64,000 nt of DNA from Candidatus Bathyarchaeia archaeon (GCA_041447175.1 CP166960.1:2558519-2622518); one strand, 5' to 3'; shown: positions 17,213 through 26,164, counted from the first letter of the stretch. Notes: generated by a model not told the origin, from the letters alone. Made by a program: numbers and translations.

Positions 17213-17758
17213 TTATTGTTTGACCGTTAATGTGGGCGTTGAGCCCTGCAAAACAATTTCCGTGTTATCCAACTTTAACTGCGGCGCAGGTAAATCGGTA
17301 AAGGTAGCCTTTGCGTTTTCCGCTTTCAGAGTGTAGGTCAACAAATAGCTTCCGCCAAAACCCTTTTGCTCTTGAAGACTGTTGCTTCCGTCCACCAGCA
17401 CAAAAGCCTCGGGAATGGGGTCCACAATTTTGACTTCCCGCCCAAACTCCGGAACCACATACCCATGCCAATAAACCATAACCTGCACCTCGACTGTGTC
17501 GCCGACGTTTAGTTTGGTGCTGTTGGTTGTTTTCTGGAAGTAGCAGGTAGTCACGTCCGATGCTGGGTTGCTGTAGCGCAGGTAAGTTCTGGCTGCAAAG
17601 AAGCTGGCTCCTGCAAGAAGAACCACAACTGCGACGGCTGCAAACGCTTTCAGGTACGGCTTAGGCTTTGGCTTTGGCGTTTGATGTTGGTATGCGTTGC
17701 TGGGTTTTTTGGGTAACCAACCCCGAAGGTGCTTAGTTAATCTTTGTTTTGTGTTAAT
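17213..17758 (-). CDS. GWLPKE-motif membrane protein with one helix and an external beta domain (last gene of the operon)
   Basis: Read from ATT at 17758 the product has 181 residues: basic helix, LRGWLPKKP, a Lys/Pro-rich linker, one membrane helix (about 36-57) and a roughly 120-residue domain outside the cell with beta-strand character (VGDTVEVQVMVYW). The first canonical codon in frame is GTG 17626, inside the membrane helix, which would delete the conserved motif. A GGAG sequence lies 9 nt before ATT, and the upstream stop is only 3 nt before it. I therefore prefer the non-canonical start. The external domain looks like a CARDB/DUF11-type adhesion or binding module; no firm family. It closes the eleven-gene set. 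Confidence 0.65.
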   Translation of the reverse strand: MNTKQRLTKHLRGWLPKKPSNAYQHQTPKPKPKPYLKAFAAVAVVVLLAGASFFAARTYLRYSNPASDVTTCYFQKTTNSTKLNVGDTVEVQVMVYWHGYVVPEFGREVKIVDPIPEAFVLVDGSNSLQEQKGFGGSYLLTYTLKAENAKATFTDLPAPQLKLDNTEIVLQGSTPTLTVKQ

Positions 17759-17761
17759 GAG

Positions 17762-18376
17762 TTAACTCTCCACGTTTTCTTTTGCCTTAAAATGCCTATA
17801 CAGCAGAAAATTGACCAACACAACTGTGGGAATAAAGACTGCCCAGAAAACCGCCGACACTTCCGAGCTTCTGGTGTACCGGTCCACTAGCCAATGCGCC
17901 CCCAAGAAAGTGCCAACCATAACCGCATTTACCACGGCGGTTAGTTGGACAGCTTTGATTTCCTTTTCGGTTCGAGCTTTGGGCGTGAACCAGTCTCCGC
18001 GGTACCTTAGCCACTTGGAGCCCTCAACGTTAAGCCTTAAACCCCACAGAGTAAAAACAAAAAGAGACGCCACAATGAGTGCCAACGCCGCCGCCAACAT
18101 AACCCCGCCTTCAACCGTGATTGGCGACGTGTAACCCCAAACTGGGTTGGCTTTAGGCGAGTAGAACTGGGGAAAAACGTAGTACGGAACCACCAACAAA
18201 AGCAATCCTGCAAAAAGGGTTCCAAACGCGGAGGCGCCCAGAACCTGTGTGGGTACGGCTCGGGGTTTGGGCTTGGGGTTAACTTGGGTGGCACGGGTTT
18301 TTTGTATTTCTGGGCGGGTCGGCTCTTTGGGCAGCCAACCTCTGAGTCGATTCTTTAAGCGATTCTTTGACTTCAC
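17762..18376 (-). CDS. GWLPKE-motif four-helix membrane protein
   Basis: A 204-residue protein: NRLKNRLRGWLPKEP at the N-terminus, a 30-residue Lys/Pro-rich linker, then four predicted helices (about 47-68, 88-111, 143-162, 173-193). The last two form a module (TFLGAHWLVD, RYTRSSEVSAVFWAVFIP, VNFLLYRHFK) nearly repeated in the 105-residue gene at 21804-22121. GTG 18376 overlaps the upstream TGA (GTGA), with GGAGGAG just upstream. Not a known transporter family. The conserved motif lies in a basic, cytoplasm-facing N-terminus by the positive-inside rule. Confidence 0.75.
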   Translation of the reverse strand: MKSKNRLKNRLRGWLPKEPTRPEIQKTRATQVNPKPKPRAVPTQVLGASAFGTLFAGLLLLVVPYYVFPQFYSPKANPVWGYTSPITVEGGVMLAAALALIVASLFVFTLWGLRLNVEGSKWLRYRGDWFTPKARTEKEIKAVQLTAVVNAVMVGTFLGAHWLVDRYTRSSEVSAVFWAVFIPTVVLVNFLLYRHFKAKENVES

Positions 18377-18858
18377 CTACACTCCTCCATACCTGTTTGC
18401 TTCTTGAATTCCCTCAACAGTAAATTGTTAACCAAAAACAGTGCCAACAAAAGAATAATCCACAAGCCCAGCTTTACCTCGCCGCTTTTGATGATTGGGT
18501 TAATCAGGAAATATGTTCCCAAGAGAACGCTCACCATAGCTACGTTAGCCCCCGCAATTATTCCGGCTGCTCTTCTTCCCTTTTCCGTCAAAGGTTTGTT
18601 TTGAATAGGCTTTCTGAACAATACATTAACAACAATTGCTGTCAAAACTCCAATCGGCGCCGCCACAAGAGTAACGTAATCATTCCCCAACCCTAAACCA
18701 TACATCACGGCAACGGCAGCAAACACTGCGACGAAACTAGCCATGAAAAGGATGTAGCCTCTTTTTGGCTGCTGGCTTGCTTGGGCGAGGACAGGTTTTG
18801 CGCGCGCAGGCTCTTGGGGAAGCCAGCTACGACAGAACTCTTCCAACCGTTTCCTCAA
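18373..18858 (-). CDS. GWLPKE-motif four-helix membrane protein
   Basis: A 161-residue protein with the variant CRSWLPQEP close to the N-terminus, then helices at about 34-55, 60-80, 96-117 and 127-148. The C-terminal helix pair ends in VNNLLLREFKK, matching the VN-LL-R-FK ending of the genes at 17762 and 21159. TTG 18858 overlaps the upstream TGA (TTGA) and has GGAGGGG about 8 nt upstream. Function unknown. It fits the operon pattern of constant N-terminal tag plus variable membrane core. Confidence 0.72.
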   Translation of the reverse strand: MRKRLEEFCRSWLPQEPARAKPVLAQASQQPKRGYILFMASFVAVFAAVAVMYGLGLGNDYVTLVAAPIGVLTAIVVNVLFRKPIQNKPLTEKGRRAAGIIAGANVAMVSVLLGTYFLINPIIKSGEVKLGLWIILLLALFLVNNLLLREFKKQTGMEECR

Positions 18859-19922
18859 ACTTCTACCCCTCCAACCTCAAGCTGATCCCTCCACAGGTTC
18901 CCAAAAACGGGGTCCGCAAATCCCGCTTCCACCGCGACGTTTATGGCGAAATGGGCGTCTTGGGGGACCCACAAGTCAGTTGAGAACGTTTCGGCTTTTT
19001 GGGGGTTAAGCGTTGACTCTGCCCAGCTGATGTTAGTTTTTGTATCATAATTTGTTTGTATTGTTTCAGGGTTTCCAATGTACAGGGTTGCTATGCCTAA
19101 CCCTATCGCAAACGGGGATGCAGGATTGGAGTGTGGTAGCCACCCGTTTGTCGTGGATTCATTTGGGGCATTTGTCGATACGTTTACGGCTGCGTAGTTG
19201 AAGTTTGTTTCTGGACAGCGCAGGGTTATTTCTAGATAGTAGTAGTCTTTTTTGGGGTCAAGGTCACTGTACTGGTACACTTTGGTAGTGACGACAAATC
19301 CGTCGTTGTTGCTTGTTTGGGTGTGGTTTTGCATTAACGTTTTGGAGGGGTTGATTGTCTGGGCATTCACGATGGCGATTGCTGGCGCAAAGGTGGCAAC
19401 ACACAAAACCACCAGCAGTAGCGCTGCTGGAACCGCCTTAACTGCTTGGGGCGTTTTGCCTTCGCGAAGAATAACCAAGTACGCAATTAACACAACCTCC
19501 AGTGGCCACGCTGCTCTTAGCGGAAGCACATAGAACACAACAAGCGACGCTGCCAAGAACACAATGGCTATGTTTATCCACCGTTTTTGGTTGGTAAGCA
19601 AGCCTGCGCCCACCACAAACAAGCCCGCCCCGTCAACGACCGCAACTGCAGCCATCACAAACCTCAAGTCAAACGGCAAATATCCCAACTGCGCGGTCTG
19701 CTGGCTTAGGGCGAGTATGGCGCCAACCCCGAATACCCAAAGCAGACCCACAACAATTTTCAAACCCAACGGCGTTTGAGTGAACAAAGTGCGAGGCGTT
19801 TTCTTGTTTGGTGAGTTTGGGGAACTCGCTTTTCGGGGCAACGCGGGTTCTTGGGGCAGCCACCCTCGAACACGCGCCTCTACACGTTTTTTATTGTCCC
19901 TGTTTTCACACGTTTTCTTCAA
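18855..19922 (-). CDS. GWLPKE-motif polytopic membrane protein with a large external domain
   Basis: The largest member, 355 residues: VRGWLPQEP at about 18-26, five predicted membrane helices between 49 and 190, then about 165 residues with N-x-S/T sequons (NVSTN, NISWAES) and beta-rich sequence, probably outside the cell. TTG start at 19922 overlaps the previous gene by 17 bp, with GGGG about 10 nt upstream. Together with the 17213 product it gives the operon two external domains; the others are almost entirely in the membrane. No known family. Confidence 0.72.
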   Translation of the reverse strand: MKKTCENRDNKKRVEARVRGWLPQEPALPRKASSPNSPNKKTPRTLFTQTPLGLKIVVGLLWVFGVGAILALSQQTAQLGYLPFDLRFVMAAVAVVDGAGLFVVGAGLLTNQKRWINIAIVFLAASLVVFYVLPLRAAWPLEVVLIAYLVILREGKTPQAVKAVPAALLLVVLCVATFAPAIAIVNAQTINPSKTLMQNHTQTSNNDGFVVTTKVYQYSDLDPKKDYYYLEITLRCPETNFNYAAVNVSTNAPNESTTNGWLPHSNPASPFAIGLGIATLYIGNPETIQTNYDTKTNISWAESTLNPQKAETFSTDLWVPQDAHFAINVAVEAGFADPVFGNLWRDQLEVGGVEV

Positions 19923-20532
19923 AGTGTTTTTTCCCCAGTTTTTTTAAGACTTGGTCGCTTGCAAATGCTCCGATGGCAAAAAGCAGAATGAGCGATACCC
20001 AGACGTAAACGGACAGCAATGGACCAAAAAGCAATCTGAATGTGACTCCAACTGCCAATGCAGTGACCAGCCCCGAACAAATTATAATCCTTATTCTGTG
20101 CTCTTTTGGATGCCGCCTGTAGTACTCTCGACCGAAGGCAAAATACAAGGCGATGGCTACTCCCGCGTAGACTATTGTCAGAACATGGCGGTACCCAGAG
20201 TTTTCTGCGATAAACGGTACATAGAACAAGATTACTGCGGCAACAATAAGCGTTAAAACTGTAATCACTCCTACGTACCGCAAACCTTTCATCACTTTGC
20301 TTGGCGCTTCAGCCACATTTACATTATCCTTTCGCTGTTTTCGTCCTTCTCTTAGCCAGTTACGGTTAACGTTTCGTCGCGCCTTTAACGTACCCCTGTT
20401 CCTGTCATCTTCTGCTGCTTTTCTTTGTGTACCGCCCAACCTTAAACCCCTACCATATTCCAAATTACTCCACAAACAGCCACAGGCCAAATGTAAACGC
20501 CAATCCCGTTGGTCCCGCTTTCTTGTCTTCAT
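19906..20532 (-). CDS. Four-helix membrane protein of the GWLPKE operon with a degenerate motif
   Basis: A 208-residue open frame. Membrane helices lie at about 85-110, 117-133, 148-168 and 173-192. Upstream of them VNRNWLREG sits where RLRGWLPKE sits in the siblings, so it looks like a decayed copy of the motif. The first 45 residues (rich in Arg, Trp and Gly) do not look like the siblings and may not be translated, but there is no other ATG. ATG 20532 is 5 nt after the previous stop. Membership rests on position and membrane layout more than on the motif. Confidence 0.6.
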   Translation of the reverse strand: MKTRKRDQRDWRLHLACGCLWSNLEYGRGLRLGGTQRKAAEDDRNRGTLKARRNVNRNWLREGRKQRKDNVNVAEAPSKVMKGLRYVGVITVLTLIVAAVILFYVPFIAENSGYRHVLTIVYAGVAIALYFAFGREYYRRHPKEHRIRIIICSGLVTALAVGVTFRLLFGPLLSVYVWVSLILLFAIGAFASDQVLKKLGKKHFEENV

Positions 20533-20536
20533 TTCC

Positions 20537-20845
20537 TCACTCTAAGCCCCTTTTTTTAATTCTTTCCTCTGTTAACCAACCAACGGAAAAACTAGCAGTA
20601 AACAGCAAGGCCTCAAAGATGTGCGTGTAAACATACGTCATGCCTGAATGGATTCCACTGGGTCCACTGTAACCGATAAGAAAGTAACTAAGCGCCCTTA
20701 AAGAAACAAAAACGGTGCCGCCCGCTCCTAAGCCAGCTAAGGCGGCGTAACTTCTGCGTTGGGTGTTGAGTTGGTGTGGGTTTTGTTGTCCTTTGGGGAA
20801 CCATCCGTGGATTCGGTTTTTCAAGTTAACCTTTAAGGTTCCCAC
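20537..20845 (-). CDS. GWLPKE-motif two-helix membrane protein
   Basis: A 102-residue protein with LKNRIHGWFPKGQ near the N-terminus (GWFPKG variant), a short polar linker and two helices (about 33-58 and 70-90), ending in a charged EERIKKRGLE tail. GTG start at 20845 overlaps the preceding gene by 13 bp. Two-helix layout with both ends inside is expected from the charges. Function unknown. Confidence 0.7.
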   Translation of the reverse strand: MGTLKVNLKNRIHGWFPKGQQNPHQLNTQRRSYAALAGLGAGGTVFVSLRALSYFLIGYSGPSGIHSGMTYVYTHIFEALLFTASFSVGWLTEERIKKRGLE

Positions 20846-21162
20846 AGTTTTGCCTCCTTCTGTTTTTCCCTTTGGTATATCCAGGTGAAAATCAGGGCGC
20901 CTCCAATGCCGACAGCCATGCTGGTAATTAAATTCCAGTAAACGCCATACTGCGAGGTCAAATTCAGAAAACTTCCCAGCATCCAGAGCAGACCCCCAGC
21001 GAGGGCGCCTCCTAAAATGAGTGCGATGTATGCCGCCATAGCTTTGCGGGTGGGGAAAAACCTGTAATGCACCTTTTGCTGGGTGATTGATACGTTAGCC
21101 TCTTTAGGAAGCCAGCCACGTACTTGTCTTTTCACGTTTTCTAAGTGTTTGAGTTGCTTCAT
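20833..21162 (-). CDS. GWLPKE-motif two-helix membrane protein
   Basis: A 109-residue protein: VKRQVRGWLPKEA, a short linker, helices at about 43-66 and 75-95, and a basic tail (YQREKQKE). ATG 21162 is chosen because it overlaps the TGA stop of the previous gene (ATGA); the longer frame is read-through of that neighbour. No known family. Confidence 0.72.
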   Translation of the reverse strand: MKQLKHLENVKRQVRGWLPKEANVSITQQKVHYRFFPTRKAMAAYIALILGGALAGGLLWMLGSFLNLTSQYGVYWNLITSMAVGIGGALIFTWIYQREKQKEAKLWEP

Positions 21163-21500
21163 GGGAGCAACCTCGGGTCTGTTGTATTTTGGTTCCTCTT
21201 GGGGTATCTGTAGAGCAGAAAATTTACTGAACTCAAAGACACCAAGAAAACACTCCACGAACCAGCGGCGTATTCCATGTTTTTGTTATGGGGGTCAATC
21301 AGCAAGTGGGCAAGCAAGAACAGGTTCACAATGACTGCGTTAGCCACTGTGCTGCGTTTGAAGATTTTTCTCTGTGCATCGCTCTCGGTTGCAGTTTTTT
21401 GACCTTTCATGACTGTTTTCGATTCTTGTCCGTCACACAGAGAAGGTGCCTTAGGCAGCCAGCCTTGAATGCGGTTTTGCAGACTTTTCAACAGGCTCAT
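21159..21500 (-). CDS. GWLPKE-motif two-helix membrane protein
   Basis: A 113-residue protein: LQNRIQGWLPKAP, a polar linker of about 30 residues, and two helices (about 51-68 and 78-97) ending in VNFLLYRYPKR. The helix pair is related to those ending the genes at 17762, 18373 and 21804 (pattern VN-x-L-x-Y/R). ATG 21500 overlaps the upstream TGA (ATGA). Confidence 0.72.
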   Translation of the reverse strand: MSLLKSLQNRIQGWLPKAPSLCDGQESKTVMKGQKTATESDAQRKIFKRSTVANAVIVNLFLLAHLLIDPHNKNMEYAAGSWSVFLVSLSSVNFLLYRYPKRNQNTTDPRLLP

Positions 21501-21802
21501 GTTTGTTTTCTCCTTTGGTGCTCTTCTTTGCGTTTAACCAGAAACGGAACTGTCGCCACTACACCCCAGACTGAGCCTTCCACAGTTGCATACCAGAGAT
21601 AGGAGCCTATGCCGTGGGTTAAACCTGCGATGTCTCCGAAGACTAAAAGCGTTGCACTTACCCCCGCACCTGCAACAATCGCTCTCGCGGTCCATCGAAT
21701 CATGGCGGGATACTTTTCTGCGGGGTTTTGGGGTGGTGATGCGACATACTCTTTGGGGAGCCAACCTTGGATTCGACTCTGAAGATGCTTTTTTTGGTTC
21801 AT
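21497..21802 (-). CDS. GWLPKE-motif two-helix membrane protein
   Basis: A 101-residue protein: LQSRIQGWLPKEY, a short linker, helices at about 33-53 and 62-82 with Gly/Ala-rich faces, and a strongly basic tail (KRKEEHQRRK). ATG 21802 follows the previous stop after 1 nt. Unknown function. Confidence 0.7.
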   Translation of the reverse strand: MNQKKHLQSRIQGWLPKEYVASPPQNPAEKYPAMIRWTARAIVAGAGVSATLLVFGDIAGLTHGIGSYLWYATVEGSVWGVVATVPFLVKRKEEHQRRKQT

Positions 21803-21803
21803 T

Positions 21804-22121
21804 TTATTCTCCCTTTTGGGCTTGTTTTTTGAAGTGCCAGTACACTACTAAGTTAACAAAAAACAGCGACGGTATGAAAATTGCCCAGAAGACCGCTGAA
21901 ACCTCAGAGCTCCGAGTGTACGCATCCGCCGTCCAATGAGCAGCCAAGAAGGTTCCCAGCATGGCTCCGTCTGCGACCATGGTGATTTTGAAGGCGCGCC
22001 TTTCCCACGACGGCATCTCTTTACGCGTTGGTTCCGCGGCTTTGCGTTGGGGACTGGGCAAACAGGGCTCTTTGGGGAGCCAGCCTCTAAGGCGGTTTTC
22101 GAGGGCTTTTAGAGCATTCAT
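21804..22121 (-). CDS. GWLPKE-motif two-helix membrane protein (close paralogue of the 17762 C-terminal module)
   Basis: A 105-residue protein: LENRLRGWLPKEP, a linker, then two helices with TFLAAHWTAD, YTRSSEVSAVFWAIFIP and VNLVVYWHFKK. The loop RSSEVSAVFWA is identical in the 204-residue protein at 17762-18376, so one is a duplicate of the other with or without the extra helix pair. ATG 22121 is 2 nt after the previous stop. Function unknown. Confidence 0.75.
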   Translation of the reverse strand: MNALKALENRLRGWLPKEPCLPSPQRKAAEPTRKEMPSWERRAFKITMVADGAMLGTFLAAHWTADAYTRSSEVSAVFWAIFIPSLFFVNLVVYWHFKKQAQKGE

Positions 22122-22123
22122 TT

Positions 22124-22426
22124 TTAGTGCTCCTTTTTAGTGTGCCTCAAAACTGCCGTAAACGCCGCAGCCGCTACACAGGCAACCACGATGAATAGTG
22201 AAACGTACCCTCCGAGCCCTGAAAAAAGACCTAACCCCAAAGCGGCATCCGCTGCACCTAAAAAGGCGCCTGCAAAGCCTAGTCCCAGAATCGAAGTCCC
22301 CAATCGAATGTTTGCTGTTGATGTCTTGTGGCTGTTTGTCTGCTGGAGGCTGGGTATTTTTTGCTCTTTAGGAAGCCAACCGCGGAGCAAACTCTCAATA
22401 CGGCGTAGGTCCTTTCGAGCAGTCAT
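22124..22426 (-). CDS. GWLPKE-motif two-helix membrane protein (first membrane gene)
   Basis: A 100-residue protein: ESLLRGWLPKEQ, a short linker, then a Gly/Ala-rich pair of helices (about 38-65 and 70-92) and tail RHTKKEH. ATG 22426 overlaps the TGA of the regulator gene (ATGA), which ties the membrane set to the regulator in one transcript. Confidence 0.72.
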   Translation of the reverse strand: MTARKDLRRIESLLRGWLPKEQKIPSLQQTNSHKTSTANIRLGTSILGLGFAGAFLGAADAALGLGLFSGLGGYVSLFIVVACVAAAAFTAVLRHTKKEH

Positions 22427-22908
22427 GTTTTCAACTCCGGTATTAGTTGACCAAAGATTTGGGTTGCCAGCTTGGCGGGGTGCATTTCTTGGGCGCCCTC
22501 GATTTGGATGCCTCTTTCTTTGGCTACCTGTAGCAGGTATTCGCGGGTTTGCTGTAGAAAGTCTTCGCTGAGGGTTTCTTCTTCGGGGTTGTCGTGCCAG
22601 TACCAGACTTTGATGCCGTGGCTGGTGGTGTAGGTGACGACGGCTTTGCGGTTGAGGGCGGGGTGGTAGCCGAGGAGCACGGCGTTTTGGGCGTTTAGGC
22701 GGGTGACTTGGAGTTCGTTGACTTGGGCAACTTCGAGGAGGGCTTTGCTGATTTTTGCTTCTGCCGCCAGCCTTGTTTGGTTGATGTATTGGCGGCTGGT
22801 TTTGAGTTTTTCTGCTATGGCGGCGATGGAGTTCCCTGCGCTGGTTAGCGACCAGACTGCCATCTGTTTGGGGCTGAGGGGTGAGGCGAAGGAGTAATTG
22901 GGCTTCAT
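22423..22908 (-). CDS. Helix-turn-helix regulator heading the GWLPKE operon
   Basis: A 161-residue protein from ATG 22908. Residues about 10-55 form a LuxR/Tfx-like helix-turn-helix: LSPKQMAVWSL, SIAAIAEKLKTSRQYINQTR. The rest (LNAQNAVLLGYHP, KAVVTYTTSHGIKVWYWHD) is an alpha/beta domain I cannot assign. The open frame extends upstream, but the promoter palindrome and TATA box lie inside that extension, so the shorter start is preferred. It is the first gene of the operon and probably controls it. Tfx-type archaeal activators are the nearest comparison; this is inference. Confidence 0.78.
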   Translation of the reverse strand: MKPNYSFASPLSPKQMAVWSLTSAGNSIAAIAEKLKTSRQYINQTRLAAEAKISKALLEVAQVNELQVTRLNAQNAVLLGYHPALNRKAVVTYTTSHGIKVWYWHDNPEEETLSEDFLQQTREYLLQVAKERGIQIEGAQEMHPAKLATQIFGQLIPELKT

Positions 22909-22920
22909 AACCAACACACT

Positions 22921-22950
22921 GTAAATAGTCAAATGTTTACAATTATTTAA
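22921..22950 (-). promoter_or_regulatory. TATA box and imperfect palindrome in front of the GWLPKE operon
   Basis: Reading the minus strand, TTAAATAA (22950-22943) is a TATA-like box. It is followed by a 20-bp imperfect palindrome at 22940-22921 with outer arms GTAAA and TTTAC (seven of ten pairs match). The palindrome lies between the TATA box and the ATG at 22908, so a bound regulator would block initiation. The operon's own HTH protein is the obvious candidate. Confidence 0.5.
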
Positions 22951-23673: not shown

Positions 23674-24915
23674 TCAGGTTCTTTCCTTAAACAACCAAAC
23701 CCGAACTTCCTCATCAGCATCAATAAACTGCTGATTATCCGGAATCTCCAAAAAACCATCCGCCTTCGTCAACGTCGTTATTGCACCAGAACCACCTGAC
23801 TCCACAGGCTTAGCCACCCAACCCTTTACGCCGTCCGAAACAAGCGAAACCGTAACAAACGTGCGTCTACCCTTCGCTGCAAACATTCGCCGCCAAGCAA
23901 CCGCCCTCACCGAAGGCACATCACCCGGCAACCTGCCGCACATAACCTGCAGAATTGGTCTAGCTAACAAATGGAAAACCAGCAACGCCGAAGTCGGATG
24001 ACCCGGAAAAGAAAACACTGGCTTATCCCCAATTAACGCCACCGTCACTGGCTTGCCTGGCTTAATTGCAACGCCCGAAAGAAAAACCCCCGGTTCCCCC
24101 AACGAATCCACCATCGACGGAACAAGGTCTTTAGGACCCACCGAAACACCACCCGACGTCAAAACCATATCCGCCAACAACAAAGCCTTCTTCAAACCCC
24201 GACGCAAAGGCATCTTCTCGTCAGGAACCACACCCGCATAAACCGCATCGGCGCCACATTCCCGAACCGCCGTGCACAAACTGTAAGCGTTTATGTCGTA
24301 GATTTTGGCTGGCGGCAACGGCTTTCCCGGTTCGGTGACTTCTCCGCCTGTGGAAAGAACCGCCACTGTGGGAACCTTAAAAACTCTGACTTTAGCGTTG
24401 CCTAAAGCCGCTAACGCGCCGATTTCGCGGCTGCCCAAAACCACCCCTGCCCCAAGCACGGTTGCACCCTGTTTTATGTCGGAGCCTTTTTTCATAACAT
24501 TCTCGTTTGGGGTTACACTGCGAAAAACCAAAAGCGTATCCTTTTCTTTTTGGGTTTCTTCAACCATGACCACCGCATCGGCGCCTTCAGGGATGGGCGC
24601 GCCCGTGACGATTTCGGCGGCTTCACCCTCTGAAACCTTAACTTGAGGTGGTTCGCCGATGCCCACAAAACCGCACACCTTAAGCTGCACAGGCTGGTTT
24701 TCGTCTGCACCAAACGTGTTTTGGGCTTTAACCGCGTAGCCGTCAACGGTTGAACGGTTAAACGGCGGAATATCCAGCTTGCTGGTCATGTCTTCGGCTA
24801 ACACGCGGCTGTAAGCTTGCAGCAGCGAAATTTTTTGGGTGCCCAACGGTTTAGGCTGCAGCTTCTGCCAGAGAATCTGTTTTGCTTCGTTGAAGGTGAC
24901 CAGTTTCCTAAACAT
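23674..24915 (-). CDS. moeA: Molybdopterin molybdenumtransferase MoeA (copy 1)
   Basis: A 413-residue MoeA family protein, which inserts molybdate or tungstate into adenylylated molybdopterin. Visible: domain with PPFNRSTVDGYAV near the N-terminus, GxxIPEGADAVVMVEET, the MoCF-binding core VAVLSTGGEV and TSGGVSVGPKDLVP, FSFPGHPTSALLVF, and the C-terminal beta domain. It lies about 10 bp downstream of a second moeA in the same direction. Paired moeA genes are common in archaea and may divide Mo from W or serve two steps; the sequence does not say which is which. Confidence 0.93.
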   Translation of the reverse strand: MFRKLVTFNEAKQILWQKLQPKPLGTQKISLLQAYSRVLAEDMTSKLDIPPFNRSTVDGYAVKAQNTFGADENQPVQLKVCGFVGIGEPPQVKVSEGEAAEIVTGAPIPEGADAVVMVEETQKEKDTLLVFRSVTPNENVMKKGSDIKQGATVLGAGVVLGSREIGALAALGNAKVRVFKVPTVAVLSTGGEVTEPGKPLPPAKIYDINAYSLCTAVRECGADAVYAGVVPDEKMPLRRGLKKALLLADMVLTSGGVSVGPKDLVPSMVDSLGEPGVFLSGVAIKPGKPVTVALIGDKPVFSFPGHPTSALLVFHLLARPILQVMCGRLPGDVPSVRAVAWRRMFAAKGRRTFVTVSLVSDGVKGWVAKPVESGGSGAITTLTKADGFLEIPDNQQFIDADEEVRVWLFKERT

Positions 24916-24925
24916 GCCGCTTCAC

Positions 24926-26164
24926 CTATACCTCGTCAAACAAGTGCACCGTGACTTTTTCGCCTTCCGCCAAGCCCTCACGGTTTTCGGAAACAATCAC
25001 GTAGCCGTTGGCTTTGGTCATGGTGCTCAGGTTTCCTGAACCCTTCGCGCTGACGGGCTCCGCAACATAGTCCCCGTTTTGCGTAACGACATGAACCCGC
25101 ACAAAACTTTTCCTGCCCAAGGCAGTGGCGATTCTTCGGGTCATGACCGCTTTCAGGGTTGGTCGGGGCTCTTCCTTCTTCAAACCTGACAACTTGCAAA
25201 TTAGTGGCCTAGCAAACACTTCAAAGCCTGTGATTGCCGCAACGGGGTTGCCGCTGAGAACCATCACGGGTTTGCCCTCCAAGATAGCAAGGGCGGTGGG
25301 CATTGCGGGACGCATGGCAACTCCATGAACCACTATGCCTGGCGCGCCTACTTTGTTCACGGCTTCGGGCACCAGGTCTAATCCGCCAACGCTGGTTCCG
25401 CCCGTGGTTATGACGGCATCCGCGATTTTGAGCCCAATGGTTATGGCTTGTGCGATTTCGTCCACGTTGTCTTTTGATAAACCTAAATCGAGAGGTTCAG
25501 CATCTAATTCGTAGCACATGCTTGTGAGCATGATGCGGTTGGATTCCCAAACCTGTTTTGCGCCGCGTTTGTCCCCGCTTTTGGCAAGTTCGTTTCCTGT
25601 GGCTACGATGGCGATTTTGGGTTTTTCAATCACTTTAACTTCACTATTCCCCAGCGCGGCAAGAAACGCCAAATGATAAGGTCTGAGTCTGGTGCCTGCT
25701 TCCACGGCAACTTTGCCTTTTTTGATGTCTTCGCCTTGACGCATAACATTGTCAAAAGGGGCTGCTTGAGTCCACACCTCGATTTTAGCGTTCACAGGCT
25801 TGGTTTTCTCCACCATGACCACTGCGTTAGCGCCTTTTGGAAGGGGGTTTCCTGTCCAAACCTGCTTGCCCTGACGATGCGCAGTGTCGGTTAATGCGTC
25901 TTCTTCAGTTAAACGGAAAAGAAGCGGTTTGGTTTCGGATGCGCCAGTGGTGTCTTCAGCTCGAACTGCGTAGCCGTCAACAGCTGAACGGTTAAATCTG
26001 GGCAGGTCTTCGGCTGCAATTATGTCTTCGGCTAACACGCGGTTGTAGGCTTCAGTTAAGGGAATGGTGGTTTCTCTGCAGGGTTTGGGCTGCAAGGCGT
26101 CAAACCACGTTTGTAACGCTTCATAGGTAAATGTAAGTTTTTGGAATCCCTTCGTTTTCGACAA
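24926..26164 (-). CDS. moeA: Molybdopterin molybdenumtransferase MoeA (copy 2)
   Basis: A 412-residue paralogue of the next gene with the same blocks: PRFNRSAVDGYAVRAED, GNPLPKGANAVVMVEKT, IAIVATGNEL, TTGGTSVGGLDLVPEAV, VLSGNPVAAITGFEVF. TTG start at 26164. The two copies are clearly diverged, so the duplication is old. Presence of two suggests that the organism makes tungsten or molybdenum pterin enzymes, as expected for an anaerobe. Confidence 0.93.
   Translation of the reverse strand: MSKTKGFQKLTFTYEALQTWFDALQPKPCRETTIPLTEAYNRVLAEDIIAAEDLPRFNRSAVDGYAVRAEDTTGASETKPLLFRLTEEDALTDTAHRQGKQVWTGNPLPKGANAVVMVEKTKPVNAKIEVWTQAAPFDNVMRQGEDIKKGKVAVEAGTRLRPYHLAFLAALGNSEVKVIEKPKIAIVATGNELAKSGDKRGAKQVWESNRIMLTSMCYELDAEPLDLGLSKDNVDEIAQAITIGLKIADAVITTGGTSVGGLDLVPEAVNKVGAPGIVVHGVAMRPAMPTALAILEGKPVMVLSGNPVAAITGFEVFARPLICKLSGLKKEEPRPTLKAVMTRRIATALGRKSFVRVHVVTQNGDYVAEPVSAKGSGNLSTMTKANGYVIVSENREGLAEGEKVTVHLFDEV

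Follow-up and report, generated by a model that had tools for sequence, protein, structure and literature searches.

An operon in the window, a 64,000-nucleotide stretch of the genome of a Candidatus Bathyarchaeia archaeon, probably encodes an autoregulated membrane-to-promoter circuit, in which an HTH protein would act as autorepressor and a set of membrane proteins would dock on it via a shared N-terminal tag. The evidence comes from the operon itself, from the company that the tag keeps across archaeal genomes, from a palindromic operator and from covariation and modelling of the tag with the HTH protein.

An operon of tagged membrane proteins headed by an HTH gene

The operon consists of one HTH gene and eleven membrane-protein genes, all on the minus strand and with ends that abut or overlap when checked in the window, just as an earlier note on this DNA had described it. 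The HTH gene (22423..22908) encodes a putative autoregulator of 161 aa (MKPNYS...) with a LuxR/sigma-region-4/Tfx-like HTH and a C-terminal alpha/beta domain. It is preceded by a putative palindromic operator, TGTAAACATTTGACTATTTACA (TGTAAA-N10-TTTACA; 22920..22941, minus strand), the sole exact copy in the whole genome, and directly upstream of this, as in nearly all relatives, by TTAAATA (22944..22950, minus strand), which from general knowledge of archaeal promoters we take to be the TATA box. Upstream of the operon lie two tandem MoeA-type molybdopterin genes (window 23674-24915 and 24926-26164).

The first five tagged membrane proteins have two TM helices each, with the tags LLRGWLPKEQ (22124..22426, its start overlapping the HTH stop as ATGA), RLRGWLPKEP (21804..22121), RIQGWLPKEY (21497..21802), RIQGWLPKAP (21159..21500) and QVRGWLPKEA (20833..21162), and the sixth (RIHGWFPKGQ, 20537..20845) probably has two as well; all TM numbers are estimates from hydropathy. 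Protein 7 (19906..20532, start position uncertain) has four TM helices and a degenerate tag, NRNWLREG, its core bearing a normal tag in one relative (L025 11219, KKHIRGWIPKES). Protein 8 (RVRGWLPQEP, 18855..19922) has four to five TM helices plus an external domain, proteins 9 (FCRSWLPQEP, 18373..18858) and 10 (RLRGWLPKEP, 17762..18376) have four TM helices each, and protein 11 (HLRGWLPKKP, 17213..17758) has one TM helix plus an external domain. The start codon of protein 11 seems to be ATT at window 17758 (INTKQRLTKHLRGWLPKKP), and because of this the protein loses its tag and TM helix when open-reading frames are called from ATG, GTG and TTG only; relatives of it are present in four other loci (L024 8446, L094 8679, L085 8781 and L026 15155).

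In most of the eleven proteins GW sits ~12 residues after the start. The helix part of the tag is variable, which brings the mean identity among the eleven down to only 42% over 17 residues, and GW.P is the core that stays constant. The tag coding pattern GGNTGGNTNCCNMARRA has seven matches in the 2.73-Mb genome, all within this operon and on its strand, whilst a reversed-pattern control has none in the same genome; a stricter tag pattern, applied to 163 genomes of the order, gave many clustered matches vs. ~6 control matches. On these sequence patterns the tag is real and selected, not a product of chance. Synonymous codons of the tag vary between copies, therefore it is the protein that is conserved and not the DNA, and a DNA-level recombination cassette is ruled out on the same ground. 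The earlier description of a constant tag on variable membrane cores is right, with the correction that some cores resemble each other: four of the window proteins (at 21804, 21159, 18373 and 17762) share a two-helix core and two further pairs are weakly similar. In a Pfam search every match of the window membrane proteins fell below the cut-off, and the statement that they belong to no named family stands; a PADLOC search for a defence system gave no usable match. One protein of a related locus (L024 13824-14378, 184 aa) is a tandem fusion, in which HSWIPKK and LGWVPKD both resemble the tag and both precede TM helices.

The tag accompanies the HTH gene across archaea

A profile of the HTH protein only, with the tag left out, was searched against 84,980 genomes and returned 72 loci in Bathyarchaeota, Methanosarcina, Methanoculleus, ANME and others, with methanogens and ANME archaea accounting for the majority. 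In this set the HTH gene is usually followed by a gene for one or another type of membrane protein with a GWLP- or WC-P-type tag, and in most loci the HTH stop and the tagged-gene start overlap as ATGA. The tag of methanogen and ANME partners is usually x-x-G-W-C-P at the N-terminus, in more distant Bathyarchaeia it reads W-C-[PQR], and in the most distant ones A-C-P. In Methanosarcinia the strict tag pattern was found in the partner for 28 of the 36 HTH matches inspected, and the HTH gene is mostly single per genome (97/238 genomes).

Relatives carry from one to ~10 tagged genes in a run behind a homologous HTH gene. Their HTH protein shares 55–89% identity with that of the window and is far better conserved than the sets of membrane cores, which diverge strongly between species. 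In many genomes a single tagged gene stands behind the HTH gene (e.g. L028, L096 and many methanogen loci), and partners reach 641 aa and ~10 TM helices. Among the 163 genomes of the order, 17 have both the tag and the window-clade HTH, ten the tag only, six the HTH only and 130 neither (Fisher p = 1e-11, the genomes being related and the events therefore non-independent), and most of the tag-only genomes show isolated matches outside any tagged membrane open-reading frame. Two checks proposed in the earlier note came out positive: relatives retain the tag, and their operons have the same HTH protein at the head. Exceptions are L117-L119 and L153, where the HTH gene has no adjacent tagged gene (L118 has one nearby with its own operator), and L128, where one GWC-type partner reads GWR; fragmentation of MAGs may conceal genes at loci. 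A search for natural HTH-tag fusions gave none, with no open frame of sufficient length.

The operator and the predicted regulon

Upstream of the HTH gene the promoter runs in the order TATA box, TGTAAA-N10-TTTACA, start codon. Across 26 promoters of the window clade the operator is exact in 15 and has one mismatch in nine (24/26 at ≤1 mismatch, against 0/520 in a shuffled control at the same threshold). In methanogens GTMAA-N10-TTKAC lies 1–2 nt before the ATG in 40/40 promoters, from loci that include close relatives (control, 0/2000 shuffles), and Bathyarchaeal loci of the Cys type have GTVAR-N10-YTBAC in 7/9. In the window's own genome the exact operator is unique, one-mismatch sites are no commoner than those of a reversed-pattern control, and the predicted regulon comprises this operon only.

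Scanning the 163 genomes of the order for a TATA box plus operator gave 22 sites (control, three matches), of which 17 lie before an HTH gene and four before tagged genes that have a promoter of their own (L102, L098, L219 and L118), those of L219 and L118 having come to light only via the operator. The last site (L308, G095:C89:34799-34826) has as its neighbour the gene that in G094 (L086) borders the HTH-tag operon; the HTH and tagged genes themselves are missing from it, and the site is probably the deletion scar of a lost operon. As the sites fall at HTH and tagged genes, the predicted regulon consists of the tagged genes and the HTH gene. L088, another unlinked tagged gene, has an operator with one mismatch. 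L023 and L091 have tagged genes with neither operator nor HTH gene nearby; there (L023 8835-10082, L091 403-927) the neighbourhood includes an HTH protein of the ArsR type that has a membrane segment (GLKPKWW[KR]KFWI), and it is possible that these tagged genes have been handed over to another regulator. At the level of genome sequence, the pairing of HTH gene and tag extends across archaea, is accompanied by start-codon overlaps and goes with an operator that is restricted to HTH and tagged genes.

Possible contact between tag and HTH protein

In methanogens and most Bathyarchaeia the HTH protein carries C-x2-C-x5/6-C after a VWY motif, and the tag of its partner reads W-C-[PQR]; in the window clade these three cysteines are absent and the tag reads W-[LIFMV]-P. 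Tag Cys and HTH Cys are present or absent together, in a covariation that is mostly one evolutionary loss. The His of WYxH is not invariant (L224, L228 and L230-L232), and it is therefore plausible that three Cys of the HTH protein and one of the tag form a site together, the covariation behind this coming largely from that one loss event. AlphaFold was run on an artificial read-through of L176, where HTH and tagged gene lie in the same frame and two stop codons were read as residues. In both runs the HTH domain was confident and S-G-W-C-P formed a strand, whilst the C-terminal part of the HTH protein was modelled as a four-strand sheet plus helices. With aligned tag rows added, the pLDDT of the tag rose from 55 to 69, which is low, and a helix appeared just before the strand. 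Such a tag strand would have to pair with another strand, most simply one in the sheet of the HTH protein.

In the circuit that we favour, the HTH protein would bind the palindrome TGTAAA-N10-TTTACA, which lies downstream of the TATA box and ahead of the start codon, and so repress its own operon. The membrane-embedded tagged proteins would have their basic N-terminus in the cytoplasm, and the tag (a short helix, then the strand G-W-[L/C]-P) would dock on the C-terminal domain of the HTH protein, so that any membrane protein, whatever its core, could hold or release the same regulator. Docking would most likely pull the repressor off the DNA; the tagged protein would then act as an anti-repressor, much as a membrane-bound anti-sigma factor does, and expression of the operon would be set by the state or amount of membrane protein.

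Docking of the opposite sign, where a tagged membrane protein retains the HTH protein at the membrane in the form that binds DNA and provides negative feedback or dosage homeostasis, fits the same pairing, operator and coupling data, and a regulon made up of the operon alone suits a homeostat. We nevertheless consider such co-repression unlikely, as no test result favours it over anti-repression and the precedent of EnfR suggests an anti-repressor (PMC10570040). Less likely again is a role of the tag as a signal for insertion or for the membrane surface, in the form of an amphipathic helix tied to the HTH gene by co-transcription alone. The tag is basic and N-terminal, with a linker between it and the TM helices, as would suit such a signal, but it is not general (the seven matches in its own genome are confined to the operon), it tracks the presence of the HTH gene over genomes, its Cys tracks the HTH Cys, and G003, which has no HTH gene, carries an untagged homologue of one core. 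A set of the toxin–antitoxin kind, in which the HTH protein would be an autoregulating antitoxin and counteract membrane toxins via their tag, would account for the upstream autoregulator, the translational coupling, the palindromic operator near the start and the small membrane proteins, and expansions in ‘dark matter islands’ (PMC4158269) would agree with it; partners of up to 641 aa and ~10 TM helices, an HTH gene that is mostly single in Methanosarcinia and the lack of any fitting PADLOC family make it a poor candidate. Poorest of all is the proposal of the earlier note that the tag joins the tagged proteins to each other in a multi-subunit membrane complex, which would suit as many as eleven tagged proteins from coupled genes in one operon, but which cannot be the general role of the tag since many loci have only one tagged protein, whilst cores and gene numbers change freely among close relatives. 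What stays constant beside a tagged protein is the HTH protein together with the operator and not another protein with the tag, so that the tag belongs with the HTH protein.

Relationship to known systems

The tag has been recorded before in another guise: methanosarcinal tagged partners match DUF1673 (PF07895; arCOG06827, ‘MGWCP motif’) with E-values down to 1e-35, the motif being the tag, and DUF1673 scored above the cut-off in 6/10 methanogen or ANME-type partners tested. The methanosarcinal DUF1673-type partners behind the HTH gene carry a GWCP-type tag and the window bears the GWLP form of the same tag; the window proteins have no DUF1673 match in Pfam at E ≤ 1. In G257 eight tagged genes stand in a run behind one HTH gene. 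DUF1673 has so far stood only for a set of uncharacterised membrane proteins that has expanded in Methanosarcina (PMC4158269, PMC4390880), and the MGWCP motif has been noted once, for the Methanosarcina proteins (PMC4158269). Neither a link between DUF1673 and an HTH gene, operator or tag function, nor the GWLPKEP motif, was found in the literature searched.

On the regulator side, the Tfx family (TIGR00721; EnfR, 8hno; MTH0916, 1nr3) likewise consists of small HTH regulators with an extra C-terminal domain and no known effector domain (PMC10570040). EnfR (8hno) is the closest relative with a solved structure; it has no effector domain, and the study of it proposes an unnamed anti-repressor, with no tagged membrane partner mentioned in the text consulted (PMC10570040). 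The model of a Methanosarcinaceae HTH protein aligns with 8hno over residues 2-53 (Z 9.7, rmsd 1.2 over 52 residues, 27% identity), and sigma region 4 structures also match the HTH half of the model. The aligned part is the HTH half alone and does not extend to the ‘note-head’ C-terminal alpha+beta domain of Tfx, our model showing a four-strand sheet plus helices in its C-terminal part. The TIGR00721 score is 17.6 bits vs. a cut-off of 60.25, and the protein is therefore not filed as Tfx.

Bacterial ECF sigma factors and their membrane anti-sigma partners (e.g. SigL-RslA, 3hug) are autoregulated, with a translationally coupled membrane partner that has a short cytoplasmic binding part; the membrane or sensor parts of anti-sigma proteins are variable, and some anti-sigma domains hold zinc. 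The HTH-tag system would be alike in logic, with its region-4-like protein, coupled membrane partner and variable cores, and its loci have ATGA overlaps and the operator, autoregulation being putative. It differs in having a repressor-like single HTH, a ~16-residue tag instead of a domain, and many partners per regulator. An identity as a bacterial RNA polymerase sigma factor was not borne out, the protein being archaeal and having only a region-4-like HTH, with no sigma region 2 found in its 161 aa.

The HTH-tag system looks like a previously undescribed archaeal modular switch from membrane to gene, built of a small DNA-binding protein and unrelated tagged membrane proteins. In its widest form, which we advance tentatively and would put at somewhat below even chances, each genome would have a single autorepressor that reads many membrane proteins, unrelated to one another, via the common ~16-residue tag, in most lineages through a shared metal site (three regulator Cys and one tag Cys), as an archaea-wide and undescribed counterpart of sigma/anti-sigma pairs. 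If true, this would explain DUF1673, a family of unknown function that is expanded in the cultivated and genetically tractable Methanosarcina, would give archaea a modular link from membrane proteins to transcription, and would offer a candidate for the type of anti-repressor which the Tfx-family EnfR study proposed without being able to name it.

Several loci have neighbours of other kinds. A contig filed as viral (L182, IMG/VR UViG_3300050582_000205) carries an HTH-tag pair opposite in strand to terminase-like genes, and the pair is probably host flank beside a provirus. Genes for an ABC ATPase and an ABC-2 or related permease adjoin tagged genes in L085, L088, L094 and L098 (all Bathyarchaeia), with Pfam support for these neighbours at L085, L094 and L098; such genes are absent from the window, and ABC-2 exporter subunits were set aside as the identity of the tagged proteins and retained as a lead. 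The window's own genome also has a second, distant HTH relative with three Cys (L052 7118-10128; G000:C1 ~643 kb). This distant three-Cys HTH, also present in L050, L053 and L054, stands ahead of a conserved membrane protein of ~242 aa with the start ..EKIIKPPVKQITSGKIFKPS, after which L052 carries an ABC ATPase and a permease-like gene as well, and the set is a parallel regulator–membrane pair without the tag.
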